Shown one piece after another: positions 1-31,293 of a stretch of 64,000 nt of DNA. A program made the translations under genes and the position numbers. The notes under the pieces are model-generated. The model saw only the letters and a program-made list of their open reading frames with translations. It made no database searches and was not told where the DNA came from. Source of the stretch: Curvibacter sp. CHRR-16 (GTDB taxonomy: Bacteria; Pseudomonadota; Gammaproteobacteria; Burkholderiales; Burkholderiaceae_C); the NCBI RefSeq assembly GCF_018474005.1, contig NZ_JAHCSH010000004.1:124001-188000 (forward strand), given 5' to 3'. Every line of letters begins with the position of its first letter. The first letter of the stretch is position 1.

Positions 1-123
1 CAAGTTGGGGATTTCGCTCATGCACAAGCCGTCTTGGGCAGTGGCAGCACGCGTTTGGCTGGGGCGTGTGAAAGCCGCCAAGGGCGAGCGCAGGTTCATG
101 GAAAGAGTCGAGGCGTTAGCCAT
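1..123 (-). CDS. soxG: Sarcosine oxidase gamma subunit, 5' part only
   Basis: Only the first 41 codons are present; the gene runs off the left edge of the window. The ATG (123 to 121) lies inside the end of soxA, so the genes overlap by 8 bp, as expected for translationally coupled subunits. The visible N-terminus reads MANASTLSMNL and then RSPLA. The call rests mainly on position: heterotetrameric sarcosine oxidase operons commonly run beta-delta-alpha-gamma, and gamma is the missing subunit. The gamma subunit belongs to the GcvT-like/SoxG family and has a structural role beside the alpha subunit. No catalytic feature can be judged from this fragment. Confidence 0.75.
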   Translation of the reverse strand, partial: MANASTLSMNLRSPLAAFTRPSQTRAATAQDGLCMSEIPNL

Positions 124-3121
124 GTTGGCGTTCTCCCTTGGGATCGACGAATACAGAGGACGACGCCACCTTGACCGGCATGACCTTGCCACGGGCGTAG
201 GCGTACAGGGTTTGGTCGGTGCGCTGGCTGCCTGAGCGCACCACCGCCATGGCGATGGAGCGGCCCAAGAAAGCGCTGTAGTAGCTGGAGGTCACGTGGC
301 CCAGCATGGTCGCGGGGGCCGTCCACTCGGGGCTTTCCTGCAACTGGGCCCCTTCGGGCAGCACCTGCTGCGGGTCTATCGGCAGCAAACCAACTAGCTG
401 CTTGCGGTCGGCACGGGCCGTGTCGCTGCGCGACAGGGAGCGCTTGCCCAAGAAGCTGAAACTCTTTTTCATGGACACCGCCCAGGACATACCCAAGTCC
501 AGTGGGGTCACCGAGCCGTCGGTGTCTTGGCCGACGATGATGAAGCCCTTCTCGGCGCGCAGCACGTGCATGGTTTCGGTGCCGTAGGGGGTGATATCAA
601 ACTCGGCCCCGGCAGCCATGACGGCTTCCCACAGGTCGTAGCCGTAGCCGCTTTCGACGTTGATTTCGTAGCTCACCTCACCCGAAAAGCTGACGCGGAA
701 CACGCGGCAGGGCACGCCCTGCACGGTGCTCTCGCGCCAATCCATGAACTTGAAGTTTTCGGGCGACAGGTCGAGGTCGGGGCACAGCTTGGCCAGCACC
801 GCGCGGGCTTTGGGGCCGACCAAGGCCACCGTGCTCCAGTGGTCGGTGACGGTGCTCATCCACACCTTGAGCTCGGGCCACTCGGTCTGGTGCCAGCGCT
901 CCAGCCACGTCAGCACCCGGGCTGCGCCACCGGTGGTGGTGGTCATGTAGAACTGGGTGTCGTGGATGCAGGCGGTCACGCCGTCGTCCATGACCATGCC
1001 GTTCTCGTCCAGCATCAGGCCGTAGCGGCACTTGCCGGGGGCCAGTTGGCTCCAGGCGTTGCTGTACACGCGGTTGAGGAACTCGCGGGCATCGGGGCCG
1101 TCGATCTGGATCTTGCCCAGCGTGGAGGCGTCCATCACGGCCACGCCATTGCGGGCGGCCAAGCATTCGCGGTTGACGGCGGCGTGGATGTCTTCACCGG
1201 GTTTGGGGAAGTACCAAGGACGCATCCACTGGCCCACAGGTTCCAACTCAGCGTGGCGGGCGACGTGGGAGGCGTGGCAGGCTGTGTAGCGGCTGGGCTC
1301 CAGCGTGTCGCCCTCCATGGTGCCTGCCAGCACGCCCAGGCTGACCGGGGTGTAGGCGGGGCGGTAGGTGGTGGTGCTGACCTCGGCCACAGGGCGACCC
1401 AAGGCCTTGGCGGCGATCACAAAACCGTTCACGTTGGAGAGCTTGCCTTGGTCGGTGCCAAAGCCCAGTGCGGTAAAGCGCTTGACGTGCTCGATGTGCT
1501 GCCAGTTCTCTCGGATGGACAGTTCGATGTCGGCTGCGGTGACGTCGTTTTGGTAGTCCACAAAGGCTTTGGCACCCTCGCCTTCTGGCAGCAAGTCGGG
1601 CAGGCGGTACATGGGGCGGGCAACGGCACGGCCGGGGGCTTTCACAGCCGGGGTGTGCAGTGCGCCGGGGCGGCCCAGCTCCGCCAACACGGCTTGCATG
1701 GCTTGGGTGGTCTGGGCCAAGCAGTCGACCCACTCAAAAGCGCCCGTGACTGCGCCCACGCAGGCCACGCCGGGGCGGCCTTCCCGTGGCACATGGAAAG
1801 CGGCCAGCGTTTCACTCCAAATGGGGCGGCGGCCATCGTGGCAGAACAAATGCACCGTGGGTGACAAGCCACCCGAGGTGAGCACCACGTCCGCGTCCAC
1901 GGTTTTGCCTTCGCCAATGGCTTTGTCTTCGGTTTCGTGCAAACGGGTCAGCTGCACGCCTGTCACGGCGCGGCCACCCAGCACTTTGGCAATGCCATGG
2001 CCGGGCAGCACCTCGATGCCTGCGGGCAAGTCTGCTGGGCGGGCGTGGGCACGCACATCGGCCACCACCACCTTGGCCCCCGCTTGGTGCAAGGCCCGGG
2101 CGGCGTCATAAATCAGGTCGCTGGTACCGCACAGCAGCGCTTTTTGGCCCACCAGCACGCCATAGCGCTGCAGGTAGGTTTGGGCGGCAGACACGGTCAT
2201 GACGCCGGGCACGTCGTTGTTGCCAAACACCAGGGGGCGCTCCAGCGCACCAGTGGCCAGCACCACGTGGTGGGCGCGGATTTTGTGCAGGCGCTGGCGG
2301 GGTTGGTCGGCATTGCGCTTGGCAATCGGCAGGTGGTCTTGCAGCAGCTCCACGGCCAAGGTCAGGTTTTGGTCGTACAGGCCAAAAGCGGTGGTGCGGG
2401 GCAGCAGCGTGACATGGGGCATGGCCTTGAGGGCTGCCACGGTTTGCTGCACAAAGGCAGCACCATCGCGCCCTTCGATTTGCACCCACGGGTCGGACAG
2501 GAGCCAGCCGCCCATTTCGGCTTGCTCATCCACCAGCACGGTTTTGAGGCCCGCCATGCCCGCTTGCAATGCGGCCAGCAAACCGGCTGCGCCCCCACCC
2601 ACTACCAGCACGTCCACATGGTGGTGCAGGTGGTCGTAGCGCTCGGGGTCTTCCACCTCGGGGGCGCTGCCAAAGCCTGCGAACTTGCGGATTACCGCCT
2701 CGTATGTGGGCCACAGGGCTTGTGGCCACTTGAAGGTTTTGCTGTAAAAGCCTGCGGGCATGAAGCGCGAGGCTTGGCCTAAGATGCTCTTGATGTCAAA
2801 GCCCAAGCTGGGCCAGCCCGATGTGGAGCGGGCTTTCAGGCCTGCATACACCTCGGCCTGTGTAGCCTTGATGTTGGGCACGGTGTAGGCACCTGTTTCC
2901 ATTTGCACCAGCGCGTTGGGCTCTTCAGCCCCCACACCCATGATGCCGCGTGGCCTGCCGTACTTGAAGCTGCGCGCCACCCACTGCTGGCCGTTGGCCA
3001 ACAGGGCCGATGCCAAGGTGTCGCCGGGGTGGGCGGTGTAGCTGGTGCCGTTGTATTCGAACTGGATGGTTTTGCTGGTGTCGATGCGCGCACCGGCTAC
3101 GGGAACACGGACTGCAGTCAT
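116..3121 (-). CDS. soxA: Sarcosine oxidase alpha subunit
   Basis: 1001 residues, the usual size of the alpha subunit. It takes part in oxidative demethylation of sarcosine to glycine, passing the one-carbon unit to tetrahydrofolate as methylene-THF and making H2O2. The N-terminus has the short Fer2_4-like domain (FEYNGTSYTAHPGDTLA, about residues 18-34). A Rossmann dinucleotide motif follows (VVGGGAAGLLAAL) with a nearby acidic ribose-binding segment (VLVDEQAEMGG). The last 380 residues or so form a GcvT-like aminomethyltransferase domain. The open frame extends upstream to 3295, but the ATG at 3121 overlaps the soxD stop as ATGA and gives the family N-terminus MTAVRVP, so I start there. It is the third gene of a cytoplasmic amine-catabolism operon. 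Confidence 0.95.
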   Translation of the reverse strand: MTAVRVPVAGARIDTSKTIQFEYNGTSYTAHPGDTLASALLANGQQWVARSFKYGRPRGIMGVGAEEPNALVQMETGAYTVPNIKATQAEVYAGLKARSTSGWPSLGFDIKSILGQASRFMPAGFYSKTFKWPQALWPTYEAVIRKFAGFGSAPEVEDPERYDHLHHHVDVLVVGGGAAGLLAALQAGMAGLKTVLVDEQAEMGGWLLSDPWVQIEGRDGAAFVQQTVAALKAMPHVTLLPRTTAFGLYDQNLTLAVELLQDHLPIAKRNADQPRQRLHKIRAHHVVLATGALERPLVFGNNDVPGVMTVSAAQTYLQRYGVLVGQKALLCGTSDLIYDAARALHQAGAKVVVADVRAHARPADLPAGIEVLPGHGIAKVLGGRAVTGVQLTRLHETEDKAIGEGKTVDADVVLTSGGLSPTVHLFCHDGRRPIWSETLAAFHVPREGRPGVACVGAVTGAFEWVDCLAQTTQAMQAVLAELGRPGALHTPAVKAPGRAVARPMYRLPDLLPEGEGAKAFVDYQNDVTAADIELSIRENWQHIEHVKRFTALGFGTDQGKLSNVNGFVIAAKALGRPVAEVSTTTYRPAYTPVSLGVLAGTMEGDTLEPSRYTACHASHVARHAELEPVGQWMRPWYFPKPGEDIHAAVNRECLAARNGVAVMDASTLGKIQIDGPDAREFLNRVYSNAWSQLAPGKCRYGLMLDENGMVMDDGVTACIHDTQFYMTTTTGGAARVLTWLERWHQTEWPELKVWMSTVTDHWSTVALVGPKARAVLAKLCPDLDLSPENFKFMDWRESTVQGVPCRVFRVSFSGEVSYEINVESGYGYDLWEAVMAAGAEFDITPYGTETMHVLRAEKGFIIVGQDTDGSVTPLDLGMSWAVSMKKSFSFLGKRSLSRSDTARADRKQLVGLLPIDPQQVLPEGAQLQESPEWTAPATMLGHVTSSYYSAFLGRSIAMAVVRSGSQRTDQTLYAYARGKVMPVKVASSSVFVDPKGERQHG

Positions 3122-3465
3122 GCGCTCACTCCCGTGTTGTGCAGGGCCAGTTGGGCCAAGCGCTGGGCTTGGGCATCGGGGTCGGCTTCGTACACGGCTT
3201 TGCCGTCGGCCAGCGTCCAGGTGCCTGCGATGGCGTAGCTGGCGGTGTTGCGCTTGACCACCAACACCTTGCGGCAGCCCGCACTGTGCTGCCACTGCTC
3301 CCAGTACCAGCCCTTGGTGTTGGCGCGTTTGAACAAATAGTCGCCCCAGACCTCGTCGTTCACCCCTTCTGGGTTGACGGGGCGCACCAAATAGGCGGGG
3401 CCTGCGTAGCTGAATTCCTCTTCATCGCGCAGCGCGGCGCAGTGAGGGCAGTGGAGTTGCAACAT
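3118..3465 (-). CDS. soxD: Sarcosine oxidase delta subunit
   Basis: 115 residues, typical for the small delta subunit. The N-terminal MLQLHCPHC carries the cysteine pair that, in this family, helps bind a structural zinc. The body has the family phrases DEEEFSYAGPAY and YLFKRANTKGW, followed by WQHSAGCRKVLVVKRN. Its stop overlaps the soxA start by 4 bp. A longer open frame to 3756 runs back into soxB and is not the gene. It contributes structure, not catalysis, to the complex. Confidence 0.93.
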   Translation of the reverse strand: MLQLHCPHCAALRDEEEFSYAGPAYLVRPVNPEGVNDEVWGDYLFKRANTKGWYWEQWQHSAGCRKVLVVKRNTASYAIAGTWTLADGKAVYEADPDAQAQRLAQLALHNTGVSA

Positions 3466-3509
3466 GGTTTTTGGTTTCCAAATAGCGGTATGGGGGGGCG
3501 ATGTGGTGG

Positions 3510-4766
3510 TCAGTGCGCCACAGCGGCAGCGCCGTGCTCGTCGATCAGGTGGCCGCTGGCAAAGCGGTCCAGGCTGAAAGGCGCGGCCAACGGGTGCGGG
3601 TCGTCGTGGGCGATGGTGTGGGCGAACACATGGCCCGAACCGGGCGTGGCCTTGAAGCCGCCCGTGCCCCAGCCGCAGTTGAAGTACAGCCCTTCCACCG
3701 GGGTTTTGCTGATGATGGGACAGGCATCGGGCGACACATCCACAATGCCGCCCCACTGGCGGTTCATGCGCACGCGGGAGAACTGGGGGAATAGCTCGAT
3801 GATGGCCGCTGCCGTGTGCTCGATGATGTGCGGGCTGCCGCGCTGGCCGTAGCCCAGGTAACTGTCGATGCCTGCGCCAATAACCAACTCGCCCTTGTCG
3901 GACTGGCTCAGGTAACCGTGCACGGCGTTGGACATGATGACCGTGTCGATCACGCGCTGCATGGACTCGGACACAAAGGCCTGCAGCGGGTGGCTCTCCA
4001 GCGGCAAACGCACGCCCGCCTTGGCCGCCAGCACCGAGGAGTGCCCCGCTGCCACACAGCCCACGCGGGATGTTTTCACATAGCCTTGGCTGGTTTGCAA
4101 ACCTTTGACGCGACCGCCTTCGATGTCAAAGCCTGTCACTTCGCAGTTCTCAATCAACTCCACCCCCAAGCGGCTGGCAGCACGGGCAAAGCCACGCGCC
4201 ACGGCATCGTGGTGGGCAATGCCTGCGCGGGGCTGCCAGCTGGCGCCCAGCACCGGCAAACGGCGGCTGCGGCTCACGTCCAGCTGGGGGATTCTTTCTT
4301 TCACCTCGGCAGCGTTGAGCACATGGGCGTCTATGCCTTGCAGGTGGTTGGCCGCCACGCGGCGCTCGATGTCGCGCATGTCCTGCAGCGTGTGGCCCAG
4401 GTTGAACACGCCGCGCTGGCTGAACAGCACGTTGAAGTTCAGGTCTTCGGTCAGTCCTTCCCACAGCTTCATGCCGTGTTCGTACAAAAGCGCGGCTTCA
4501 TCCCACAGGTAGTTGGAGCGAACAATGGTCGTATTGCGACAGGTGTTGCCGCTGCCCAAGTGGCCCTTTTCCAGTACGGCAATGCGCCCTACCTTGTGGT
4601 TTTTGGCCAGGTAGTAAGCCGTGGCCAAACCATGGCCACCCCCACCGACGATGACCACGTCGTACTCAGACTGGAGGCTGGCGCGTGTCCACGCAGGCTC
4701 CCATGTTTTGTGGTGGTTCAGCCCGTGTTTGAACAGGCTCCAAACGGAATATTTCTGCTGCGGCAT
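3510..4766 (-). CDS. soxB: Sarcosine oxidase beta subunit
   Basis: 418 residues, a DadA-type FAD-dependent amine oxidase that is the main catalytic subunit. The FAD Rossmann motif is [18 protein letters not shown] (about residues 36-53), and [21 protein letters not shown] follows it as the conserved second flavin contact. [16 protein letters not shown] carries the histidine pair; in the family, one histidine here holds the covalent FMN. The C-terminus has the expected flavin-proximal segment ([18 protein letters not shown]). It is the first gene of the operon, and the 289 bp upstream hold inverted repeats that may bind a regulator. Here sox means sarcosine oxidase, not sulfur oxidation. Confidence 0.95.
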
Positions 4767-7627: not shown

Positions 7628-8218
7628 TCAGCCCAAGTGAAAGTGCCGTTGCAGCAAATCACCAAAGCGGTCATAAGCGGCATTGGCCCCGGCAACAACG
7701 GCGTCATGCATATCCGGGGTGATAGTGTCACTGTCGAGATACGCCACAAAACGACGCCACACCACTGCGCGCCCCTCTGGATATGCAGCCAGATTGCGGG
7801 CACCGAAATCAGCAGAAAGCCCCAACTTGGCCTGCGCTTCTTTGAACAAGAAAGCGGCACCCAATGTAGAACCTTCGGACACATACAGCCAGCCCAATGC
7901 GGCCGGCATACTGACTTGCGCACTGGCAATAGCCTCTTGTGGCACAGGGGCGGCCAAATCGGTCAAATCATCGCGGGATGCTTGCTGACGACCGCGGCTA
8001 TCCAAATCGGGCACCGCAGCGCGCACTGCAGGATCGGCAAAGAGGTGCTCAATATCGCGCTGAAAAACATACTGTGCAGCCACAAAGCTCGCGTAGGCTG
8101 CACGGCTGGAGAAGGGTTGCCCACGCTCCATCAAGCGGTGCATACGCTCGTGCTGCGCATGGGTCTCTTCTTTCAGGCGGGAAGACAAGCTGGCAATCGC
8201 CGTTGCAACATCGGTCAT
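7628..8218 (-). CDS. Bacterial heme oxygenase (biliverdin-producing)
   Basis: 196 residues in the usual HemO/BphO size range. Heme oxygenases open the heme ring to biliverdin, CO and Fe2+, freeing iron or making a bilin. The N-terminal helix has the candidate proximal histidine (THAQHERMHRLM), and the distal helix has the glycine-rich WLYVSEGSTLGAAFLFK that defines bacterial members. The open frame starts at 8260, but MTDVATAIASL at 8218 gives the family N-terminus. No bacteriophytochrome or heme receptor lies in the window, so iron acquisition and bilin supply cannot be separated from context. No clear Fur box was seen upstream. The next gene downstream is the DUF454 membrane protein. Confidence 0.87.
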   Translation of the reverse strand: MTDVATAIASLSSRLKEETHAQHERMHRLMERGQPFSSRAAYASFVAAQYVFQRDIEHLFADPAVRAAVPDLDSRGRQQASRDDLTDLAAPVPQEAIASAQVSMPAALGWLYVSEGSTLGAAFLFKEAQAKLGLSADFGARNLAAYPEGRAVVWRRFVAYLDSDTITPDMHDAVVAGANAAYDRFGDLLQRHFHLG

Positions 8219-8273
8219 AGATGGTTTTCTTTCTCGTAAAAAATCACACAAAACACACACCCCCGACAGGAGG

Positions 8274-8375: not shown

Positions 8376-10586
8376 TCAAAACCCGCTTTCTCGCACCAGC
8401 ACTGCAGCAGCGCGAGACCACAGCCGTACCAAGAAACTGCTGGCTGAACCATCGATAACGACCGTTCCGCGCAACACCTGTAGCCGTGGCAAAGCATGGT
8501 CCGCATCGGGCACTAAATGCACGCGATAAATGGCTTGCTCTGGCAGCCATGCCCGCCCATCCAAAGTCATTTCACCGGGCAATACAGGCGTTTGTGTGGC
8601 GGCAATCGCACCGCCATTGGGCGAAGCCAGTTCAGGGCTACTGGTGAGGCGTCGCGTGGCCGTGGCTGCAATCTCATGCACGCGCACAGGCATAGCCCCT
8701 ACGCCGGTATCCTCAGCAAGAAAAATAGCCTTAGCCCCAAGGCTTAAACGCCCCAACTCCGCTTCCGCCACATACCCTTCCACCAGTACGGTCTGGGGCG
8801 CTGCCAGTGTGCCCAACCACTCGCCTGCAGGAACCCACTCACCGACGCTCAAAGGCTCCACCATGTCGGCCACCACGCCATCAAAAGGCGCTTGAATATG
8901 GAGTTGCTCCTTTTGTCGCTGCAATACAGCGTAGCGGGCTTGCGCCGCTTGCAACTCACTTTGCGCCACAGTCGCACTGGCTGCAGTGTGTGCCCGCAGG
9001 ATAGAAAACGCACTTTTCCATTGCAACAATCGGATGTTTTGCTCCAAAGCCAGCAACTCATAGTCCAACGCAGGGGCCTCCAGAACCAGCAGACTGTCGC
9101 CTGCGCGAACGGCTTGGCCGGGCTGGATGGCAATGCGCGCAATGCGTGCACCCGCTGGGGCCATTAACTGCACTTGCTGCGCAGAGCGCATGAGCGCTGG
9201 CGCATCAATCCGTGTAGGCCACGGAATCAGCGCCAACACCACCCCACCGAATAACAAGCCCAACACCCAGCGGCTGCGCACAGTCCACGCTGCCGATCCC
9301 GTCTGTTTCAAATGGACAAACCAGACGCGCAACTCGGTATAGATGGGGCGGAGAACGAAAACCACGATCTCAACAGCGAAAAGCACAATGCCCAATACCT
9401 TGAATGCGACGTGGTAGACCAGCACGGCGATCCCCAGAAAAAGGAAGAAGCGATAAATCCACACGCACAAGGCATAGGCAATCAACGCACGCTCTCGCCA
9501 CGGGGCGAAGTGCTCGGGCTTTGGCTTGCCAAAATCGAACAGCCATTCCCGCAAGCGCCACCGCCCCAGTGCGAATGCGCGTTGCTGCAAATTGGGAACA
9601 TTGAGCGCATCAGAGAGCAAAAAATAGCCATCAAAACGCATGAAGGGATTCAGGTTTACTGCCAATGTGAGGAGCACCGTCGTCGTAGCCAACATGAAGG
9701 CTGCGCTGCGCAACATGCCATCGGGCAAAAAGCTCCATGCCAACACGGCCCACGCTGCGATACAGATCTCGGTCAACATGCCTGCAGCACCAATAGATAG
9801 TCGCGCGCGACGCCGCTGCAAACGCCATGCTCCAGAGGTATCGGTATACAAAACGGGCCACATCACCATGAAAGCCACCCCCATGGTGGCAACGCGGCAT
9901 CCATGGTGACGCGCCGCGTAAGCGTGCCCCAACTCATGCAAAACCTTGGTGGCGCCCAAGGTCAACCCAGCCAGCATGGCCCCCTCTAGCGTGAAGAAAT
10001 GCAAGAAGGTATGCCAAAAAGCATCCCACTGCCGGGCCACCAACCACAGACCCAGCCCCCCGACTCCCGCTGTGAGCCAAGCGAACTGGCGGTTAATGAC
10101 AATACGCCTCACCCATGGCAAGGTAGCGCGCAAAAACGCATCGGGACGCACCAACGGAATGCGAAAAAACAAGTAGTGGTGCAAGACCCACTTCAGCCAA
10201 TGCGTGCTGCGCTGGGCGCGGGCTATTTGTGCATACTGCTGCTGAACCTGTGGCCCACGCTCTTGGGTCAAATGGTTGGCCTGCAAAAAGCGAGCAAACT
10301 CCGTGACCTCCTGTGCCGACACATCCAAGGTGGTTTCTTGGCTGATAGCCTGCGCGATGCGCTGTGCGTCGCCCCAATCCCAGCGGGCCAGCATTTCTGC
10401 CTCTACCCATCCGATTTGAAAGAACAGGTTTCTACCCGGGTCTTCCAGCGTCCAGCCCGGAGCCCCATCGTGCTGGCGAGGCGCTTCGTGCAACAACAAT
10501 TCTTCACGCAAAGCAGGCCATGCTGGCGCTTTGGTATCCGATGCAGGCTGCACACTGCCCTGCCCCATGATGCTCAGTCCATCCAT
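8376..10586 (-). CDS. PqqD/RRE-like domain + M50 metalloprotease + HlyD fusion
   Basis: 736 residues. Residues 25-110 look like the PqqD/RRE-type peptide-binding fold that precedes many M50 proteins of the YydH type (WTLEDPGRNLFFQIG). A multi-pass membrane core follows with the zinc motif HELGH at 217-221 and the third-ligand motif NLNPFMRFDGY at about 311-321, so the site-2-protease centre looks intact. Membrane segments continue to about residue 455. The C-terminal 270 residues are HlyD/biotinyl-lipoyl-like, with two halves (APAGARIARIAIQPGQAVRAG; LHIQAPFDGVVADM) around a coiled coil of about 60 residues. It is the last gene of the exporter block, 3 bp after the second adaptor. I infer that it is the inner-membrane engine or a processing protease of an export apparatus; its energy source is unknown. 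Confidence 0.85.
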   Translation of the reverse strand: MDGLSIMGQGSVQPASDTKAPAWPALREELLLHEAPRQHDGAPGWTLEDPGRNLFFQIGWVEAEMLARWDWGDAQRIAQAISQETTLDVSAQEVTEFARFLQANHLTQERGPQVQQQYAQIARAQRSTHWLKWVLHHYLFFRIPLVRPDAFLRATLPWVRRIVINRQFAWLTAGVGGLGLWLVARQWDAFWHTFLHFFTLEGAMLAGLTLGATKVLHELGHAYAARHHGCRVATMGVAFMVMWPVLYTDTSGAWRLQRRRARLSIGAAGMLTEICIAAWAVLAWSFLPDGMLRSAAFMLATTTVLLTLAVNLNPFMRFDGYFLLSDALNVPNLQQRAFALGRWRLREWLFDFGKPKPEHFAPWRERALIAYALCVWIYRFFLFLGIAVLVYHVAFKVLGIVLFAVEIVVFVLRPIYTELRVWFVHLKQTGSAAWTVRSRWVLGLLFGGVVLALIPWPTRIDAPALMRSAQQVQLMAPAGARIARIAIQPGQAVRAGDSLLVLEAPALDYELLALEQNIRLLQWKSAFSILRAHTAASATVAQSELQAAQARYAVLQRQKEQLHIQAPFDGVVADMVEPLSVGEWVPAGEWLGTLAAPQTVLVEGYVAEAELGRLSLGAKAIFLAEDTGVGAMPVRVHEIAATATRRLTSSPELASPNGGAIAATQTPVLPGEMTLDGRAWLPEQAIYRVHLVPDADHALPRLQVLRGTVVIDGSASSFLVRLWSRAAAVLVRESGF

Positions 10587-10589
10587 GCA

Positions 10590-11966
10590 CTAAAACCCCA
10601 ACCACACACGTGCATGGGCCAAGGGGCGACGCAGCAAATAGGCCAGCAGCACAGTGCGATGACCATACAACTTGGCAGTCCCTTTGAGACCCAAACGCGC
10701 TGTGTCTCCAGCAGCAAAACGTGCACGCACGCGGTAGGCCAGCGTCCCATCGGATGTGGGGCTTGCGCGATAGCCTACGCGCAGCAAAGTAGCCGCCAAT
10801 GGCGTTGCTGGCGCCGTATTCAAAAACATGCGCAAGGAGGCATCCTGCGGCAAGTCAATAGCGTCGGCCACCGGGAGCAACACTTCCAGCTCTATCTCCT
10901 GGGGGTCAGCAATTTGCATGATGCGCTCCCCCAAGGCTACGGGGCGACCAATCCAATCGCCCGCTTCATCCAGAACCACCGTCCCCGCTCGCTCAGCGCG
11001 CACTTGCGAGCGCTCCAACGACTGACTCAAATGATCCACCTCCATAAACGCTTGGTCGCGCCGACCTTGCAGCAAGGCCACGGAGGCTTTGCTGCGCTCA
11101 TCGAACAAGGCCTGTTGCTGCCCTTGGCGCAACTCCGCCTCGGCCACTGCCAGCCCCTGGCGTGCGGTTTCAAGCCGCCCCTCAAGCTCACGCGCATCGA
11201 GCACGACCAGCAAGTCCCCCGCTTTGACAACTTGATTGGGAGTGACGGCAATGCGGTCTACCACGCCCGGCAAGGGTGCTCGAACCGCCACGGGATTGCG
11301 TGCCACCACCTCGGCTGGTGCTAGCACCGACTGACGCACCGGCAGGCATAAAAGCAGCAAAACCACCACCGCAGCGATGCACTGAAAGCGGCGTGTACGG
11401 CCATAGTGACGCACATAGGCCACAGCGCCAGCAAATGACCAAGGCGCACGGGGCTTGCGCAGTGCGCCCCAAGCATGGGCGCACGCATCGGCAAACAACT
11501 CCAACAGGTGCAGCTGTCCCCGAAGTCCTGCTGAACCCTCCCCTTGCTGCCACGGCTCCTCACGCAATAGCAACAGACCTGCCCCCACCGAAGGCAGTGG
11601 CACCCACCACGCATGGGCTGGTAAATGCTCGGCCCACATACCTGCGTCATCAGCCTCGGCAGGAATAGGAAATTCGCCTGCAATGCTGGTACTGGCAGCA
11701 TGCTGGGCCAGCAAATTTGCCAGCCACACATTGAAGGGGGCATGGGCGTCGGGCACCGCCAAACCAGACAGTGCCACGATGCGCCCCCCCCCAGACTGGG
11801 CCTGCCACAAGACGGCCTGACGGTAAGGCACCAAGGCATACGCATCGTTGACCAGAAAAAAGGTCAATTCATCCTCACTGGCGCACGCGCGCGCACGCTG
11901 CTCCAGTTGCAGCAAAACCGCTAGCAACGCTTGCGGCGAAGACACAGGTACAGCCCCCCCTGTCAT
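10590..11966 (-). CDS. Membrane-anchored HlyD adaptor with GAF-like N-terminus
   Basis: 458 residues. Residues 12-165 form a soluble, probably cytoplasmic GAF-like region (ALVPYRQAVLWQ; WWVPLPSVGAGLLLLREE). One membrane segment lies at about 195-209 (CIAAVVVLLLLCLPVRQ). The rest is an HlyD-type adaptor with the first lipoyl half (APLPGVVDRIAVTPNQVVKAGDLL cut by a helical hairpin) and a returning half (VRAERAGTVVLDEAGDWIG). The start overlaps the stop of the upstream adaptor by 4 bp (ATGA), and the M50-HlyD gene follows after 3 bp. It probably spans from inner membrane to the TolC channel. The GAF-like part could sense a cytosolic ligand or gate assembly. The fold call is by eye. Confidence 0.78.
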   Translation of the reverse strand: MTGGAVPVSSPQALLAVLLQLEQRARACASEDELTFFLVNDAYALVPYRQAVLWQAQSGGGRIVALSGLAVPDAHAPFNVWLANLLAQHAASTSIAGEFPIPAEADDAGMWAEHLPAHAWWVPLPSVGAGLLLLREEPWQQGEGSAGLRGQLHLLELFADACAHAWGALRKPRAPWSFAGAVAYVRHYGRTRRFQCIAAVVVLLLLCLPVRQSVLAPAEVVARNPVAVRAPLPGVVDRIAVTPNQVVKAGDLLVVLDARELEGRLETARQGLAVAEAELRQGQQQALFDERSKASVALLQGRRDQAFMEVDHLSQSLERSQVRAERAGTVVLDEAGDWIGRPVALGERIMQIADPQEIELEVLLPVADAIDLPQDASLRMFLNTAPATPLAATLLRVGYRASPTSDGTLAYRVRARFAAGDTARLGLKGTAKLYGHRTVLLAYLLRRPLAHARVWLGF

Positions 11967-12850
11967 GGTTTGCTAGCAGATCGGGGGGAGACGGCGGCAG
12001 GCGGGCTAATGCGCACCACGCCACTCATGCCAGGCAGCAAAGCACCGTTATCGCGGCTGCCACGCTCATTTACCAAGCGTCCAATCACCTTGACCGACTG
12101 GCTCACAGGGTCCACCGTGCCTGCGATGCGAATCACTGTGGCGGTGTAGGTCTGACCTGTTTCTTCTACACCAACCTGCATGGGGTAACCTGGCTTGAGC
12201 CATTGCAACCAACGCGATGGCACGATGGTCTGCACCTCAAACGCGCTGTCGTCGTAGATGCTCATCAGCTCCTTGCCCTCTGCCACATGCTCGGCAGCAC
12301 GGACATAGGTTTCCCCCACTCGCCCGGAAAACGGTGCGGACACCACACAGCGTCGTGACATGGCTCGCTCCACGCCACTTTCTGCTTGGGCTACGGCAAC
12401 GGCCGCACGCGCCTGCTCTACATCGGCTTTGCTGATGGAGGCCAACTTGTCCAATTGCTCAGCCACTTCCATTTTTTTGCGTGCAGCCAACTCGGCTTGG
12501 GTGGCTCGGTCTTGCCGTGCCTTGTGCAGCGTGCAGTCAAACGACACCAAGGTATCCCCTTGGCGAAAGCGCTGCCCCTCGCGCAATGGCAAAGCACTGA
12601 CCTTGCCAGCCAGCTCACTGGCAACTACTGCTTGTCGAATGGCGACCAACTGGGCTCGCACCCCCTCAGAAGCCGGAGCTGCCAGGGCGGCGGAAGGCGT
12701 GGTCTGCACCGTGGCCGATGCGGATGCTGCCGCAAAGGCCTGTGTACCCGCTACGCCCACAAGCGCCAGGCTACCCACCATGCCTACCAGCATCCGGCAG
12801 AGCACTACCATGCCGTTATGCATCGGCTTGCACACTGGCTTACTGCACAT
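11963..12850 (-). CDS. Periplasmic adaptor subunit (HlyD/RND-MFP type)
   Basis: 295 residues from the ATG at 12850, which has a GGGAG ribosome site 8 bp ahead; the open frame to 12898 runs further into tolC. A hydrophobic signal segment (LVGMVGSLALVGVAGTQAFA) is followed by a lipoyl half (ASELAGKVSALPLREGQRF), a helical hairpin, and a returning half (CVVSAPFSGRVGETYV). The end has the beta-barrel and membrane-proximal region of MFP proteins (GAL-LPGMSGVV). It overlaps tolC upstream by 11 bp and the next adaptor downstream by 4 bp. No RND pump is encoded nearby, so it most likely works with the two other adaptors and TolC of this block. Confidence 0.87.
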   Translation of the reverse strand: MCSKPVCKPMHNGMVVLCRMLVGMVGSLALVGVAGTQAFAAASASATVQTTPSAALAAPASEGVRAQLVAIRQAVVASELAGKVSALPLREGQRFRQGDTLVSFDCTLHKARQDRATQAELAARKKMEVAEQLDKLASISKADVEQARAAVAVAQAESGVERAMSRRCVVSAPFSGRVGETYVRAAEHVAEGKELMSIYDDSAFEVQTIVPSRWLQWLKPGYPMQVGVEETGQTYTATVIRIAGTVDPVSQSVKVIGRLVNERGSRDNGALLPGMSGVVRISPPAAVSPRSASKP

Positions 12851-14645
12851 GAGCATCACTCCCGGCCAGCGACCCCAACGAGTCCCATGCACTGCCACTC
12901 ACAGTACGCCATACAGGTGCGGTTGAACCACTCGATACCGTTGGGGCTACGGGTTGTGCAGATGCCGCAGGAAGAGACGCAGCAGGCAGCGCAGATGGCG
13001 CGGCGATCGCACCGGTCTTGACAGCTGTTGTAACGGGCACCACTTCGCTCTTGGCGGCGGGTAGCGACTGGGCAGCCAATGCCAGCGCCACCGGTTGCAA
13101 CTGCGGCACACTGAGCTCGCCGCGCTCAATCTGCCGATTGGTTTGGGCAATTTCCTTGGCCAGCCCTGCCACGCTTTGGTCAGCTACTTGGTCAGGCAAT
13201 GCATCGATACCCGCCGCTTGGTAGACCGTGCTTTGAGCATTGAGCAGATCGGCATACGCCATGTCTCGTGCGCGGGTGGAGAGCAAAGTTTCTACGCGGG
13301 CCCGCACCAGTTCCAGTGGTGTTTCCGACTGGCTTTTGGCTGCGTTTTCCACTTGCTCACGGATGCCGTCTTGCAGGTGACTCAACTCATTTGACCGAAC
13401 AAACAGCGCCAGCGCACGCTCGCGCTCCAGCCAAGCCACATTCACCTGTGTCAGTACCGTCATGCGCAGCGCTTGGCGGCGCAGATCGGCCACTTGTTCA
13501 CGCGTCTTGCCGCTCTTTTCAATGCCAGACCAAGAAAGCACATTGAGCAAATTCCAGCTCACTTGCATGCCTGCATCGGCCCAGTTTTGGTTACTCAGGT
13601 ATTTGTTGCTGTCATAGTTCAATCCACCGAACAATGAAGCATTGGGCAGCAAGCGCAGTAAAGACATGCGTGTTTCCAGCGCGGCATTGCGCCCCATATA
13701 GCCTTCCTCCCGCAGCTCGGCACGGCGCACCATGGCCAACGCTTCCAAGTCAGTACGGGCATAGGCCAGCGTAGGCACCACCAGCGCATCGTCAGGCATA
13801 CTGGCCAGCTCAAACTCGGTATTGGGGGCCACGTTCATCAAACTGGCTAAACGCGAGCGTGCCAAAGCCAAATCGGCATCCAAAGTTTCCAACTGACGTA
13901 CCATGCCCAACAAGTCACGCTGGTAGCGCAATGCAGTCAAGGGCGGGACGAGGCGGCGCTGCGCTGTTTGGCGTGCAAAATCCAAACTCTGGCGCGTGTC
14001 TGTCAGTGTTTTTTCAACCTGCCCTTTCAAGCGCTGCGCAGTCACAGCGCTCCAGTACGCAATGCGGGTTTGCCGAACGATATCGGCTACCACGCGGCGG
14101 CGGCGCTCCTCTGCTGCCAAAGCCTTGTTACCCTGCGCTTTGGCGCCGAAATAGCTCAAGCCAAAATCCAGCACATTCCACGACATCTGCAAATCAGCAT
14201 TGTGTCCAGAGCGCTCTTGGCTAGTTGTGGGGTCTTGCGACACCCGGCCAGTGCTCAATGTTTCGCTGACGGATGCATTGTCATTGCTGCGGGTACGCAG
14301 TCCAGCGCGCGCCGCCAGCTTGGGCAACATGCCTTGGTTCTGCACATTCACCAAGTTGTCTTCCAGCGCGCTCTCCATCAAGGCCAAGCGCTGCTGCAAG
14401 TTGTATTTGATGGCGCGGGCAATGGCCTCATCCAGGGTCACAGGTGCGGTAATAGGCTCTTGCGCACCAAACATCGCTTGGCGATCGGTTTGGTCTTGCT
14501 GGAGCAAGTCTTGCGCTGTGAATGCGGTTGGCGGCGTCACAGAACACCCAGTCAAAACCGCCGCAGCAACAAAGCTCAATGTCAAGCGTGACGGGATACG
14601 CGCAACGGTGCGCGAAGAGAAAAAGAACGATGGCATGCTATTCAT
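12840..14645 (-). CDS. TolC-family outer-membrane channel, probable lipoprotein
   Basis: 601 residues. The N-terminus ends in a lipobox (AAAVLTGCSV), so the mature protein is probably lipid-anchored like OprM. The repeated TolC helical-hairpin pattern is visible twice: LDEAIARAIKYNLQQRLALM early and ALAMVRRAELREEGYMGRNA in the second half, with ERRRRVVADIVRQTRIAYW between. A low-complexity Ala/Pro/Val tail of about 80 residues follows the hairpins and makes the protein longer than usual. It begins within the exoprotein stop (ATGA overlap at 14642-14645), which ties channel and cargo to one mRNA. It should give the outer-membrane exit for the exporter. Confidence 0.9.
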   Translation of the reverse strand: MNSMPSFFFSSRTVARIPSRLTLSFVAAAVLTGCSVTPPTAFTAQDLLQQDQTDRQAMFGAQEPITAPVTLDEAIARAIKYNLQQRLALMESALEDNLVNVQNQGMLPKLAARAGLRTRSNDNASVSETLSTGRVSQDPTTSQERSGHNADLQMSWNVLDFGLSYFGAKAQGNKALAAEERRRRVVADIVRQTRIAYWSAVTAQRLKGQVEKTLTDTRQSLDFARQTAQRRLVPPLTALRYQRDLLGMVRQLETLDADLALARSRLASLMNVAPNTEFELASMPDDALVVPTLAYARTDLEALAMVRRAELREEGYMGRNAALETRMSLLRLLPNASLFGGLNYDSNKYLSNQNWADAGMQVSWNLLNVLSWSGIEKSGKTREQVADLRRQALRMTVLTQVNVAWLERERALALFVRSNELSHLQDGIREQVENAAKSQSETPLELVRARVETLLSTRARDMAYADLLNAQSTVYQAAGIDALPDQVADQSVAGLAKEIAQTNRQIERGELSVPQLQPVALALAAQSLPAAKSEVVPVTTAVKTGAIAAPSALPAASLPAASAQPVAPTVSSGSTAPVWRTVSGSAWDSLGSLAGSDAHVQ

Positions 14646-17600
14646 TCGCTGTCTGTAGTAACGGTCTCTTTGGCTTCGACCTTGGTCTCGGTTGTCAACT
14701 GGGCCAGCAATGCTTGCGCTTTGGCAAAGAGATCACGCGAGGTTTTCTCACGCAGCGCAGCACTGAGGTCGGGTTTGGATGTAGGAGCCACTTCGCCACT
14801 TGGCTCCTGCGTCGAAGCATTGGTCTGCTCGCCTAATTCGATGGCACTGCTCTCTGTGCTCAGTTCTTGGGCACGGGCATTCATGGCATCCAACATGCTC
14901 CAAATCCCTTGCGCGGTATTGGGGGGGAAGTCAGATCTCGCATCCACATGCTGCGGTGTTAGCTGATTTTGTAGAGCACGATCCGCCATCAGCTCTACCG
15001 TAGTAGTAGTCGCTTTGCTAGTGCTCGGCTTTATGACCTCTACGGCTGCGTTGCCCCCAGCTTGTTCATTGATAGCAACGAACCACACAGGGGCTGACGG
15101 TATGGGATTGACCGTTGAATTCCCCTCCTGCAAAGTCTTACTCCCATCTCCAGGCGTAGTGGCTACAGGTGATGGAGTGGGCGTGGGGCTAGGGTCAGCA
15201 CTGCTGGCCGTTCGCACACTCAAAGTCAGGCTGCGCTCTACGCTGGCACCCGAAGGATCGGTCACCGTAATCGTCAGCTGAATATCCCCGGCCTCCGAAG
15301 GCGTTCCCGAGATGGTGTGTGTCGTCGCATCAAAGCTCATCCCTGCAGGCAAGCCCTCCACACGCCAGGTCAACTTATCGCCGTTGCTATCGCTAAATAG
15401 TGTTTCTGGCAATTCAGCGCTGTAGCCTTGTCCGACCGTAGCAGCAGCCAAAGAATGGTCACCATCCCCAACTGTTGGCGCATGGTTGGCAACCACAGCC
15501 ACCTTGGCTATAGCTACAGTGCTGCTGGCTACACCGTCATTGAGCGTCACACTGATGAATCGCACCCCCAACGTGCTGGATGTTGTGGAATAAGTGATTT
15601 GACTCAATATGGCATTGGCCTGCGCCTTGGTCACAGCGCCAGTGAAACTCAGGGTGGCCACGCCATTACTCTGCTCCAAGGTCGCTATCGTCTGGCCATT
15701 GGACTGAATGGCATTGCCATCCAAGGTATATCCATTGGCTGCAACAAAACCGAATACATCTTCTGCTGCCCCAGCAAAACGCACTGTCGCACCGGTGTAG
15801 TTGTTGGCAGCATCCAACTCCGCATCGCTCAGTGAGAAAGTCGATGCCAACTTCACGGCTTCACCACCCGACACATAGCTGGGATCAGCCACCTGAGGGG
15901 CAGTCAATACCTCTAAACCGTTACCCACGACGACGACACCACCATCTGCAGAAACGGCAATTTGCCCCGCTCCAGTCAAGCCACTTTGCGTCGAAATCAG
16001 CTCCAAAGTTGCTGTGGAGTAATAAGCCAAGGAGCCATCGGTCAATGTGACAAAAAGAGCCTTGCCATCGGTTGATAGCGCGATATCTTGAACCGTTTTG
16101 GTGCCAGCGATAGTGCCCACATGCTTCAAAGCCTTGGTACTTGCATCGAACTGGAAAGACACTACTTGTTGTGCATGGTTGGTAACGACCGTATTGCCAA
16201 ACCAATCCGTCGTACTGCTGCTTCCATTGCCGATGAAAATAGTGTTTCCATCAGCACTGACTGCGATGTGCTTCACGTTGCTAAAGCTGACCGTTTTCCC
16301 CGTTGCGTCGGTACTTCCTGAACGCACGAATGTCAGCAAAGTCAGCGAGCCATCCGAACCACGCTGGTACACGATGACAGCGGCCCCATTGGTCGCATTG
16401 GTGGCAATAAAAACGTAGTCGCCCCGCACCACGATTTCTTGGGCTGCCCATAAGTAGGGCGCACTGGTCATGGAGCCGTTCAAAGTGCTGACATACGTCA
16501 GTGCACCAGTCTCGGTATTGCGGCTTACCGTGACCAAGGCTGTGCCGGTTGCTGCATAAAGATTTTTTCCATCTTCCGAGACAGAAATAGCACTGATGCC
16601 AGACAAGGCTCCCTTATCGGTGTTGTAGACACTCACGACGAGAGCAACATATGCAAGGCTGCCATCGGTGTTGACGCTGTACTGGCCAATGGCATTGCCA
16701 TTGCTACGCAAGGCATAGAGACTTTTCCCATCCGATGACAGCACCATTTGCTTGATGCCAGTGAGGCCACTCACCGCCTTCTGTGTGCTGACATAAGTCA
16801 ACTTGCCCGTGCTGGTATCGCGGCTAAACACAGCAATGGCACCATTGGTGTCTGCCAGGTAAACATGCGATCCATCACTCGAAAAGGTGCTGGAAGACAA
16901 GGTACCCAACCCTGCAATGTTTTTGAACTGCTCCAAGTAAGTCAAGTCCCCTAAGGACAATGTCGGATCCACAGCGACACTGGGGGTGTCGTTGACTGCC
17001 GTAATCACTATCGCGCTATCGAGCGCAGTCGAAGCCACGCCCAATTGATCGGCCAAAACGATGCTCACGGCTACGCTGCTTGAAGGCGCATCACTGCTGT
17101 TGGCATAGGTGATTTGTCGCAACGCATTTTGTACGTCTGCCGTGGTGGGAATGGTTCCGTTGGCGTCCGTAAAACGGATGGTCATTACCCCGCCAGAATT
17201 GCTGACCGTAGCAATCGTCACGCCATTTTTTTGCAATACGCCGTTCGTCAGTGTCAGGCCGTTACCACTGGTGAAGCCTAGGGTGTCAGAAGCGCTTTTT
17301 CCACTGCCTAAGGTAACCGTGAGAACTGCGCCGTCATAGTTTCCTTGTCCGCCATTGAAAGTGTCCATCTGCGCATCAGATACCGTGGCACTGGGTACTA
17401 TCGACACAGGACTGCCTTGCTCTGTGTAAGAAGTATTCGTTCCCCCCCCTACGCTAGGTGCGGTATTGCTCACAGTGGCCGCCGCCAACGTCACGGATGT
17501 GGACAGCGCCACCACGGCATTGCCTGTGGAACTGTCGTCTGTCAACTCGGTAACACTCACACTGATAGTGCGCGATCCACTCAAGCTTTTAGACGTATTG

Positions 17601-19624
17601 CCATACGTCAAACTATCAATGACCTTGGCAGCATCACTGGCACTGGAGTTGAGGTAGAGCGTGACAATGGTTTTGCCATTCTTCACATCGACCCTGTACA
17701 CCACCCCCGTTCCCGTTTCTTGGGTACCACTGGTGGCTTTGTCCAATACGATTTTTCCGCTGCCCACGCCGAGCACATCACCTGCATTTGCAGCATCCAA
17801 GGTAATAACGACTTGCCACACCGTTTGCCCTGACTCCACGGTGTCGATAACCGTGTTTTCAAACAGCTTGACGCGCTCACCACCGACCGAGTAAGTGGGC
17901 GATTGACCATCGGCCGTGATGGTGGGCGCATCGTTCACGTCCACCAAAGTGATGCTGGTTTCCTTTTGGGAGCTATTGCCCTGCCCGTCATCCAACTGCA
18001 GCGTAAAGGTCGCCGTACTGCCATTCTTGGTCGGGTCATCACTGGTGTTGGTGAAAGCAATCCGCTGCAACACCTTTTGGGCAACCGCTTTGCTGACCGA
18101 GCCGGTAAAAGTTACCGTGTAAGAAGACCCAGACTGGCTCACCGTGGCGATGTCTTGGCCATTGAGTTGGATCACCCCATTGGCGATCGTCAAGCCATCG
18201 CCTGCGGTAAAGCTAAAAACGTCGTGCGTGCTGTCTTTGCCAGTATCCGTGCGAGAAACCGTAATACTGGCACCCTTGTAGTCACCCGCTCCGCCATTGA
18301 GGGCATCCAAAACAGAGTCGCTAATCGTGCCATCGGGCAATACGGGCACAGCGTCGCCACCTTCGGTGTAAGTCGATGTGGCCGACTTCAAATTCAATAC
18401 CAACAAGCCTTCTGTGAACATAAAGCTTCCCGATACGTACAACTGCGTTCCATCTGCGCTGAGCGTGGCTCCACGCAAGGCGGTGAAGGTCTTGCCATCA
18501 GCACTCTCCACTGTTGTGCTCAGGGTGAGCGTCCCATCGTCTGCACTCTTGTAGATGGTGATAGCTTTTTCGCTGATCACAAACACAGCAGCCCCATCAT
18601 CCGAGACAATGACCTGCTTGGCAGCTGCCGTTAACTGCGTGCTCGACAAGGCGCTGAGCACCCCATCCGTCCCCACCGAGAAGGTATACAGGCGGTTGCT
18701 GGAGCCATCATTTTCTGCGACGTACAGCGTCTTACCATCGGCAGAGACCGTCAAGGCCGAGGCGTAATAAGCATCTGCTGTGACGGAGCCTTTCACATCT
18801 GCGAGGTGTGTCAGACCACCATCGCTGCCTACTTTGTAGGCACTGACCAAGGTACTTCCGCCGGAGGTTCCCACGTACAAATACTGCCCATCGGAGGAAA
18901 GTGACATCGCATTGAACTGGGCATCTGCCCCCGTTGCCGTGAATACACTTTTCTGTGTCCACGTATCCCCGCTGCGTTCAAAAATTAGCAAACTGGAACC
19001 CGATGTCACATACGCGAAATTACCCTGGGTTACTACATCGGCAATAGAGCCACCGTTGCTAAGCAAATCCGCCCCCAGCACCCCCAGCGATGTCAGCTCG
19101 CCACTGTCTGTGGCCACTTTGAAGAGCGCTACCCCTTTGCTGCCTGTGACATAGACCGTGCTTCCATCACTGGACACACTGACCTGCGCAGCATCCGCCA
19201 AGGAATCTGCACTGGCCGTGCTTATGCTCGTGAGCAACTCCAGCGAACCATCGCTGTTGCGCTCGAAAACATAGAGCGTGCTGACTGACTCATCTTTGGA
19301 TGTTTCTGAGTTCCACTCAGTGGTTGTCCGCACTGCAAATACACGATTGCCAACGCTGGCAACATCGGTAATTCCCTCGTACGGACTGGGCCAATCATCA
19401 GAAGAGATAAGGCTTGCAAAATCCAACGCACCCGTTTTAGAGCCGATCTCCGCTGTCTTGTCTGCCGAGGTGCTTGCAACTTTGCTATCCAGCTGGTCTT
19501 GTGTATCGGTATCCACTTGCGACGCAATGTCCGTTGCCGTAAGGAGTGCAGCAGCATCCAAAAGAATGCGAGGCTCCAGAGCCAATACACGCTGAGAACG
19601 CAGTACGAAGGGGCTTTTTTTCAT
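14642..19624 (-). CDS. Giant LEPR-xLL exoprotein with propellers and cadherin-like repeats
   Basis: 1660 residues. The N-terminus has no ordinary signal peptide but carries LEPRILLDAA at 16-25, the LEPR-xLL motif found at the start of large exported proteins. Then come a beta-propeller-like region of lactonase type (about 85-415, repeated SSDGxxxYV), three tandem Ig/cadherin-like units (416-565, 566-720, 720-880), a second propeller (885-1240), a fourth cadherin-like unit (1245-1380), a He_PIG domain (1381-1470, GLPAGMSFD and ISGTPSEAGD), a Pro/Thr linker near 1476-1490, and an acidic, partly helical tail. No RTX GGxGxD repeats are seen. It is the presumed cargo of the exporter genes downstream and follows tadG by 52 bp. 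A role as surface adhesin or matrix protein is inferred. Confidence 0.85.
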   Translation of the reverse strand: MKKSPFVLRSQRVLALEPRILLDAAALLTATDIASQVDTDTQDQLDSKVASTSADKTAEIGSKTGALDFASLISSDDWPSPYEGITDVASVGNRVFAVRTTTEWNSETSKDESVSTLYVFERNSDGSLELLTSISTASADSLADAAQVSVSSDGSTVYVTGSKGVALFKVATDSGELTSLGVLGADLLSNGGSIADVVTQGNFAYVTSGSSLLIFERSGDTWTQKSVFTATGADAQFNAMSLSSDGQYLYVGTSGGSTLVSAYKVGSDGGLTHLADVKGSVTADAYYASALTVSADGKTLYVAENDGSSNRLYTFSVGTDGVLSALSSTQLTAAAKQVIVSDDGAAVFVISEKAITIYKSADDGTLTLSTTVESADGKTFTALRGATLSADGTQLYVSGSFMFTEGLLVLNLKSATSTYTEGGDAVPVLPDGTISDSVLDALNGGAGDYKGASITVSRTDTGKDSTHDVFSFTAGDGLTIANGVIQLNGQDIATVSQSGSSYTVTFTGSVSKAVAQKVLQRIAFTNTSDDPTKNGSTATFTLQLDDGQGNSSQKETSITLVDVNDAPTITADGQSPTYSVGGERVKLFENTVIDTVESGQTVWQVVITLDAANAGDVLGVGSGKIVLDKATSGTQETGTGVVYRVDVKNGKTIVTLYLNSSASDAAKVIDSLTYGNTSKSLSGSRTISVSVTELTDDSSTGNAVVALSTSVTLAAATVSNTAPSVGGGTNTSYTEQGSPVSIVPSATVSDAQMDTFNGGQGNYDGAVLTVTLGSGKSASDTLGFTSGNGLTLTNGVLQKNGVTIATVSNSGGVMTIRFTDANGTIPTTADVQNALRQITYANSSDAPSSSVAVSIVLADQLGVASTALDSAIVITAVNDTPSVAVDPTLSLGDLTYLEQFKNIAGLGTLSSSTFSSDGSHVYLADTNGAIAVFSRDTSTGKLTYVSTQKAVSGLTGIKQMVLSSDGKSLYALRSNGNAIGQYSVNTDGSLAYVALVVSVYNTDKGALSGISAISVSEDGKNLYAATGTALVTVSRNTETGALTYVSTLNGSMTSAPYLWAAQEIVVRGDYVFIATNATNGAAVIVYQRGSDGSLTLLTFVRSGSTDATGKTVSFSNVKHIAVSADGNTIFIGNGSSSTTDWFGNTVVTNHAQQVVSFQFDASTKALKHVGTIAGTKTVQDIALSTDGKALFVTLTDGSLAYYSTATLELISTQSGLTGAGQIAVSADGGVVVVGNGLEVLTAPQVADPSYVSGGEAVKLASTFSLSDAELDAANNYTGATVRFAGAAEDVFGFVAANGYTLDGNAIQSNGQTIATLEQSNGVATLSFTGAVTKAQANAILSQITYSTTSSTLGVRFISVTLNDGVASSTVAIAKVAVVANHAPTVGDGDHSLAAATVGQGYSAELPETLFSDSNGDKLTWRVEGLPAGMSFDATTHTISGTPSEAGDIQLTITVTDPSGASVERSLTLSVRTASSADPSPTPTPSPVATTPGDGSKTLQEGNSTVNPIPSAPVWFVAINEQAGGNAAVEVIKPSTSKATTTTVELMADRALQNQLTPQHVDARSDFPPNTAQGIWSMLDAMNARAQELSTESSAIELGEQTNASTQEPSGEVAPTSKPDLSAALREKTSRDLFAKAQALLAQLTTETKVEAKETVTTDSE

Positions 19625-21254: not shown

Positions 21255-21841
21255 GAGGATGACTTCATGGAAGAAAGACCGTTGGCTTGGCTTTCGCTTG
21301 TCAGCGCCTCATCCAACTCAATCGATTGCGCCACGGCACGGTGAATCACCCGAGCGCCCAGCACGCCTGGAAGCACCAGCCCGCCTGACAAGGTGATGTC
21401 CTCACTGCTGCGACACACCAGCACCACCACCATGGAAAGCGTACTATCCCCATCGTCCTCTGGTGGTTTTTCGGGCAGATCGCCTTGGTAGTCACGGCCA
21501 TCGCTCAAGGGGGCGCACAACTGGCCTGCTTGCCCCCGCTGAAAACCCCAATTCACTTGGCCAGTCTGCAAAACGTTCAACACCACCACTTGGTAGTCCT
21601 GCGGACGCCCCATGGTGAGCACATCCACCACACCACTCAGGCCCGCCTTGGTGAGTTTGCTCTGGGCGGCCACCGTGATAGCTGCACTGCCAGCGGCTTG
21701 CTCAATCTGCGTGCGTTCAAGCCCGATGCGGTGCATATCCGTACCGACCAAACCAATGGCCAACAACAGCGGCAAGCCCAGTGCTGCTTCCACTGCAATA
21801 GCCCCAGTTTGGCGACAGCGCTGCACCAGTGTGGGCATCAT
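21251..21841 (-). CDS. tadF: TadF-like minor pseudopilin
   Basis: 196 residues from the ATG at 21841, which overlaps the tadE stop as ATGA; the open frame upstream to 21970 is not needed. The N-terminus RQTGAIAVEAALGLPLLLAIGLVG is the TadE/TadF pseudopilin signature, with Glu before a hydrophobic helix. A segment of about 25 residues near position 125 is acidic (PEKPPEDDGDST). It would be processed by the prepilin peptidase TadV and act in pilus initiation. TadE and TadF are told apart here by order only. Confidence 0.82.
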   Translation of the reverse strand: MMPTLVQRCRQTGAIAVEAALGLPLLLAIGLVGTDMHRIGLERTQIEQAAGSAAITVAAQSKLTKAGLSGVVDVLTMGRPQDYQVVVLNVLQTGQVNWGFQRGQAGQLCAPLSDGRDYQGDLPEKPPEDDGDSTLSMVVVLVCRSSEDITLSGGLVLPGVLGARVIHRAVAQSIELDEALTSESQANGLSSMKSSS

Positions 21842-24301: not shown

Positions 24302-24311
24302 GGGAAATTCC

Positions 24312-28084: not shown

Positions 28085-28085
28085 G

Positions 28086-28760: not shown

Positions 28761-28776
28761 TGCTCGTGCATCCAAA

Positions 28777-30255: not shown

Positions 30256-30291
30256 GACAACGACTGTTTGTATGGACGGTGGCCGCAGCAC

Positions 30292-31233: not shown

Positions 31234-31293
31234 TATCCAACTCCATCCAGAAAATAAGTACAGGCTGCAGCAGCTACCGCACTGCAGGCCTCA

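Follow-up and report, generated by a model that had tools for sequence, protein, structure and literature searches.

The window, by which we mean the whole stretch of 64,000 nucleotides from Curvibacter sp. CHRR-16 analysed here, contains a compact run of five genes on the minus strand, the neighbours of which overlap or lie only a few bases apart (Table 1). The run begins with the gene of a LEPR-XLL exoprotein, which is followed by those of a TolC-like protein, a short HlyD-type adaptor and an HlyD-type adaptor with a GAF-like part, and it ends with a gene whose product joins a predicted RiPP recognition element (RRE, PqqD fold) to a site-2 protease (M50) core and an HlyD-type adaptor part (RRE-M50-HlyD). 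Directly downstream of this last gene lies an ORF that by eye resembles a heme oxygenase (7628-8260) and that was not among the recurring neighbours of the fusion gene in other loci. Two further gene sets were recognized by eye in the window, namely a sarcosine oxidase-like set (alpha, delta and beta; 116-4766) and, upstream of the exoprotein gene, a minus-strand run resembling a Tad/Flp pilus locus that includes TadE/F-like, TadD-like, TadC/B and CpaF-like genes (19677-31836).

Table 1. Features of the five-gene cassette in the window and one example of a sister cassette (coordinates of the window unless a locus is named).
Feature	Position	Strand	Basis
RRE-M50-HlyD fusion protein (P0001)	8376..10586	-	736 aa ORF, 79-member alignment, AlphaFold2 model
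C-terminal helix and tail ending RESGF	8379..8435	-	AlphaFold2 model, alignment
HlyD/MacA-like periplasmic adaptor part, residues 456-717, hairpin about 505-560	8436..9221	-	Pfam, VIA-align
Site-2 protease (M50) membrane core, residues 130-453	9228..10199	-	Pfam, NCBIfam, mjS2P profile
NLNPFMRFDGY, residues 311-321, third zinc ligand D319	9624..9656	-	invariant residues in 79/79
HELGH, residues 217-221, zinc ligands and catalytic Glu	9924..9938	-	invariant in 79/79
Predicted RRE/PqqD-like domain, residues 22-109	10260..10523	-	hhalign to PqqD, VIA-align to RRE structures
HlyD-type adaptor, cytoplasmic GAF-like N-terminal part (~residues 1-165), one transmembrane segment	10590..11966	-	Pfam HlyD_3 1.3e-14
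Short HlyD/RND-type periplasmic adaptor	11963..12898	-	Pfam HlyD_3 4.1e-18, RND_mfp over cut-off
TolC-like outer membrane factor	12840..14645	-	Pfam OEP 5.9e-25
LEPR-XLL exoprotein, 1660 aa, beta-propeller-like and He_PIG domains	14642..19624	-	ORF, Pfam, NCBIfam
Exoprotein C-terminal tag region PDLSAALREKTSRDLFAKAQALLAQL, variant of [FLM][ST]xQ[LV] plus helix	14696..14773	-	alignment, independent-set test of tag
LEPRILLDAA leader motif, exoprotein residues 16-25	19550..19579	-	NCBIfam LEPR-8K
Sister cassette example with SecA-like ATPase without wing/scaffold	L149:5863-7857		

The first-pass annotation had read the last gene of the run as a triple fusion, and this reading holds. The ORF starts with ATG, and on the opposite strand of this interval the matching frame is interrupted by stops. 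At least 590 relatives were confirmed, and because the architecture of the fusion is conserved at several hundred places, it represents neither a chance ORF nor a one-off fusion. The alignment used below comprised 79 full-length homologues that are 37-63% identical to the query, and the full-length AlphaFold2 model reached a mean pLDDT of 91.7. In NCBI records most of these proteins go under the name 'HlyD family efflux transporter periplasmic adaptor subunit' or 'site-2 protease family protein', so that the annotation hides the system; a distant relative is listed there as a PqqD family protein. The fusion gene was detected in 24 of 5426 complete Escherichia coli genomes, mostly on plasmids. 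One E. coli plasmid (L190; NZ_CP146666.1, 123597-143348) carries an intact cassette of the window type, the exoprotein of which comprises 4459 residues and starts with ALESRQLFDGAA.

A PqqD/RRE-like N-terminus had been suggested as well, with the reservation that a structural model lacking such a fold would speak against it. Single-sequence Pfam and phmmer searches of the N-terminus of the fusion missed the domain, and a direct Pfam search of the homologous domains returned weak PqqD matches in five of 78 (best 0.012). When a profile of the 78 domains was aligned by hhalign with 22 PqqD sequences, a probability of 96.2% was obtained (E 2.4e-9), compared with at most 1.2% for 20 column-permuted profiles and 0.3% for the reversed profile. 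The AlphaFold2 model of the domain shows three strands followed by three helices in a winged-helix arrangement (core pLDDT 94-98), and the highest-scoring VIA-align matches are RRE domains whose structures include a leader peptide, namely 6jx3_B (Z 10.9, rmsd 2.7 over 82 residues) as well as 5v1v_A and 5v1u_A (both Z 10.2). CteB and other RRE-bearing enzymes follow, RREs constituting the majority of the top matches, and the full-length model again gave an RRE match at residues 22-109 (Z 11.0). Because plain Foldseek gives weak E-values for so small a domain (best 0.011), the case for an RRE is carried by the profile and the VIA-align comparison together. Of the strands of the domain, beta 2 and 3 vary least (entropy 1.12 and 1.25 vs 1.87 for the domain); in known RREs these strands form part of the leader-holding sheet. 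Profile, predicted fold and solved structures thus agree with the suggestion, and the N-terminal domain of the fusion is, as modelled, an RRE.

An intact protease had been expected from HELGH at residues 217-221 and NPFMRFDGY at 313-321, which together keep all zinc ligands. Indeed, H217, E218, H221, N311, P314, R317, D319, G320 and Y321 are invariant in all 79 full-length homologues, and residue 313 is N or S. Such invariance argues for selection for catalysis, though it does not indicate the substrate. The HExxH motif is also kept in every full-length M50-HlyD protein read from the sister family described below. As in M50 proteases, the HExxH motif is combined with a third-ligand Asp in a motif of the NPxxxxDG type and with a multi-pass membrane core. 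The Pfam Peptidase_M50 match is barely over its cut-off (28.3 vs 27.2 bits, E 1.4e-6), a profile match links the core to the solved site-2 protease mjS2P (3b4r; E 1.6e-4), and the strongest curated model, NCBIfam daptide_HExxH (E 1.4e-45), stays under its own cut-off. Among the structure matches listed for the full-length model the M50 core is absent, these places being filled by the adaptor part. Charge bias suggests that the RRE N-terminus and the loop after HELGH are cytoplasmic and that the protein is periplasmic from residue 456 onward.

The HlyD arm of the fusion was equally confirmed, with a Pfam HlyD_3 match of 2.1e-17 and HlyD domains that exceed the Pfam cut-offs. Residues 456-717 form the lipoyl/barrel-sandwich fold with a helical hairpin that is typical of HlyD/MFP adaptors; they match MacA (9qgy_G, VIA-align Z 16.6) and other adaptors. 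This fold is shared with MacA, EmrA and AcrA, from which the fusion differs in that its adaptor part is tethered to the membrane by a multi-helix protease core. The type I HlyD model TIGR01843 gave 33.3 bits, compared with a cut-off of 208.65. The protein ends in a helix and the tail RESGF, in which E733 is invariant in the 79 homologues although conservation is lowest in the HlyD part. The first-pass annotation had further placed recognition, cleavage and passage in one chain, which for passage is probably not the case, because the cassette encodes a TolC-like protein and two more adaptors of the HlyD type. Since docking could be accomplished by these two adaptors instead, an arm of the fusion reaching TolC is the weakest claim of the proposal; an RLS-type TolC-contact motif, sought in the three adaptors, was uninformative. 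The GAF matches of the middle adaptor are weak and occur in 4 of 36 homologues, and in the sister family they are over the cut-off. With its cytoplasmic GAF-like part of ~165 residues, this adaptor could render export signal-responsive.

The N-terminus of the exoprotein scores 20.1 bits with NF012209 (LEPR-8K; cut-off 17) and hence belongs to the LEPR-XLL type. Co-occurrence of this motif with the fusion was assessed in 299 genomes by a DNA pattern encoding LEPRx(L/I/M/V)FD(A/G), which matched 46 of the 74 genomes that contain a strong family member and 5 of the 225 others (Fisher 7e-29, a value that is only indicative because the genomes are related to each other). A reversed-pattern control matched about as many genomes as those five. 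Of the cases in which motif and fusion were located on one contig, those inspected by eye had both on the same strand and no more than about 20 kb apart. Being an LLD variant, the exoprotein of the window escapes the DNA pattern, but it is recognized by the NCBIfam LEPR model. Gene order and genome co-occurrence give good support to the link between the fusion and LEPR exoproteins. In a check for Sec-type hydrophobic starts, the exoprotein N-termini ranked mostly below those of the short HlyD proteins, which served as signal-peptide controls, yet overlapped with them.

The exoproteins share a second conserved element, a C-terminal [FLM][ST]xQ[LV] tag followed by a helix. It was noticed post hoc, when the loose pattern matched 39 of 49 exoproteins against a background of 87 in 1268. 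An independent set was then composed of exoproteins picked by the N-terminal LEPR motif alone, in which the tag was again enriched by the loose (9/13 vs 25/404, p=3e-8) and the strict pattern (6/13 vs 11/404, p=2.6e-6); an earlier set, with one cargo-like ORF out of four, had been too small. The tag of the window exoprotein has diverged, and its sequence PDLSAALREKTSRDLFAKAQALLAQL lines up by eye with KPALSDQLRQGPASDLLHQAQTLLRQL of a close homologue.

The gene order exoprotein-OEP-HlyD-GAF/HlyD-M50HlyD recurs in 80 loci of many Proteobacteria and of Nitrospira, albeit not always completely within the stretch examined, and in some lineages the exoprotein gene follows the fusion gene instead. 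Clustering of the neighbours in these 80 loci revealed nothing outside the cassette that recurs at a fixed place, ABC transporters included; ABC-like ORFs were sporadic. No ABC, RND or other energiser is present among the five cassette proteins.

A sister subfamily (loci L139-L156) also combines an RRE-M50-HlyD fusion with a GAF-HlyD adaptor and giant LEPR-XLL proteins. Its fusion is about 25-32% identical to the window type, the RRE matches PqqD by profile with 98.1%, and the four giants with a readable N-terminus start with LEDRILLSA, IEPRILLSA, LEERIFLSA or LEPRVLLNA. The C-terminal tag described above (group 1) was not seen in the sister-family cargos. Because the sister family keeps the fusion and the leader with cargos devoid of this tag, RRE-M50-HlyD and LEPR-XLL constitute the part common to both families. 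The sister cassette differs from that of the window by a dedicated SecA-like ATPase. Its gene immediately follows the fusion gene in 17 of 17 loci; the product is mostly 650-730 aa in length and exhibits the SecA DEAD, preprotein-crosslinking and P-loop domains in Pfam searches, in which the wing/scaffold domain was not found. The frame of the ATPase is fused or broken in two of these loci, and in one the ATPase is strongly diverged. Within the stretches examined, none of the 80 window-type loci has a SecA-like gene. All 14 window-type genomes checked, the window's own included, gave a single strong SecA match, and a second SecA sought in the genome of the window was not found, the housekeeping SecA being the only one. 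Five of six sister-type genomes, in contrast, showed a second match of 310-334 bits at the M50 locus, and the sixth has a diverged copy that the model missed. The sister branch is thus probably powered by its own SecA. By analogy with that ATPase, a housekeeping Sec route is a reasonable guess for the window's branch. Another protein, WP_244635385.1 (L193:3173-5089; NZ_AP022333.1, 174172-176088), is 52% identical to the cassette SecA-like ATPase, and its annotation as 'prepilin peptidase' looks wrong.

We propose that the fusion is the inner-membrane hub of a dedicated LEPR-XLL export cassette, in which the RRE binds the leader, the M50 core clips it and the HlyD part hands the cargo on, and we consider this proposal probable on balance. 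According to it, the cytoplasmic RRE would bind the N-terminal leader around LEPR-x-x-(F/L)-D-A and bring it to the cytoplasm-facing site-2 protease core, where the LEPR leader would be cut off. The periplasmic HlyD arm, the short HlyD and the GAF-HlyD adaptor may then guide the cargo into the TolC-like pore and presumably to the cell surface, and the inner membrane would perhaps be crossed by the housekeeping Sec route; the sequence of these steps is our suggestion. There are published precedents, in that leader proteolysis in lasso peptides depends on an RRE and epipeptides and pearlins are matured by M50 enzymes (PMC10885120). The cassette is without an energiser of its own, which speaks against the proposal, and the energy may come from the Sec machinery or another source.

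Another argument against the proposal is that the C-terminal tag of the cargos could be the recognised element. If the RRE bound this [FLM][ST]xQ[LV]-helix tag and LEPR served another partner, the strong enrichment of the tag in the independent set would be accounted for, but the sister family retains RRE and LEPR-XLL with cargos that do not carry it. Most known RREs bind N-terminal leaders, and we regard recognition of the tag as quite improbable. A conserved C-terminal tag is also expected if the cargo is exported C-terminus first, with LEPR acting as a retention anchor that is held by the fusion and released later by the protease upon a signal, perhaps via the GAF-HlyD adaptor, whose GAF-like part would suit a sensory function. 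Such a mechanism resembles the release of the adhesin LapA by LapG in logic only. LapG-type release works in the periplasm, while the protease core of the fusion faces the cytoplasm or the membrane. Given that no release regulator is conserved in the 80 loci either, we consider retention unlikely.

The LEPR region falls short of the ideal, hydrophobic substrate of a site-2 protease, which weighs against clipping of the leader. The M50 core might spare the cargo and regulate the system by cutting some other membrane protein, or it might be a structural channel. Many site-2 proteases act in signalling, and the fusion is the sole polytopic inner-membrane protein of the cassette. However, no sigma or anti-sigma partner is conserved in the 80 loci, and the closest family models of the core are peptide-maturation proteases, so that we regard a core that leaves the cargo intact as quite improbable.

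Each part of the cassette belongs to a known family, while the combination matches neither the daptide and epipeptide proteases nor ABC-type type I secretion. The M50 core is like that of the daptide intramembrane metalloprotease (NF041824, MpaP), the model of which aligns with residues 57-410 and thus includes part of the RRE, and like that of the YydH/LiaK/EpeP epipeptide proteases. Membership in either family was rejected because the scores lie below the curated cut-offs (156.1 vs 300 bits for NF041824; 25.8 vs 225 bits for the YydH/LiaK model NF058609). In addition, those proteases act on small peptides, whereas the fusion has an HlyD arm and exoprotein partners of more than 1000 residues. 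The RREs of TbiB1 and CteB have the same three-strand, three-helix fold as the modelled domain, which differs from them in that it is part of a protease-adaptor protein and has large exoproteins, not RiPP precursors, as its partners. With type I secretion (HlyBD-TolC, LapBCE) the cassette shares HlyD-type adaptors, a TolC-like pore and a large repetitive cargo with a C-terminal tag, but it has an M50 protease and an RRE in place of the ABC transporter, and the cargo bears an N-terminal LEPR tag. A type I system was rejected at the level of the locus, since it would encode an ABC transporter beside its HlyD and TolC partners and none is among the five cassette proteins. The cassette is possibly a distinct secretion class.

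In a literature search confined to open-access journal papers, neither the fusion nor a role of LEPR was found to have been described. We tentatively suggest, at somewhat less than even chances, that LEPR-XLL is the leader of an undescribed envelope-spanning secretion class in which an RRE feeds giant proteins to an adaptor-fused site-2 protease, one branch drawing on a SecA paralogue of its own and that of the window on housekeeping Sec or another source. LEPR-XLL proteins are widespread giant exoproteins with a start motif for which that search yielded no described role, and the fusion provides a specific, testable partner for them. If the suggestion is true, RRE domains, which are known from the maturation of small peptides, would work in the secretion of very large proteins, a protease would be built into an export adaptor, and the SecA-linked sister system would represent an accessory Sec-type route in Gram-negative bacteria.
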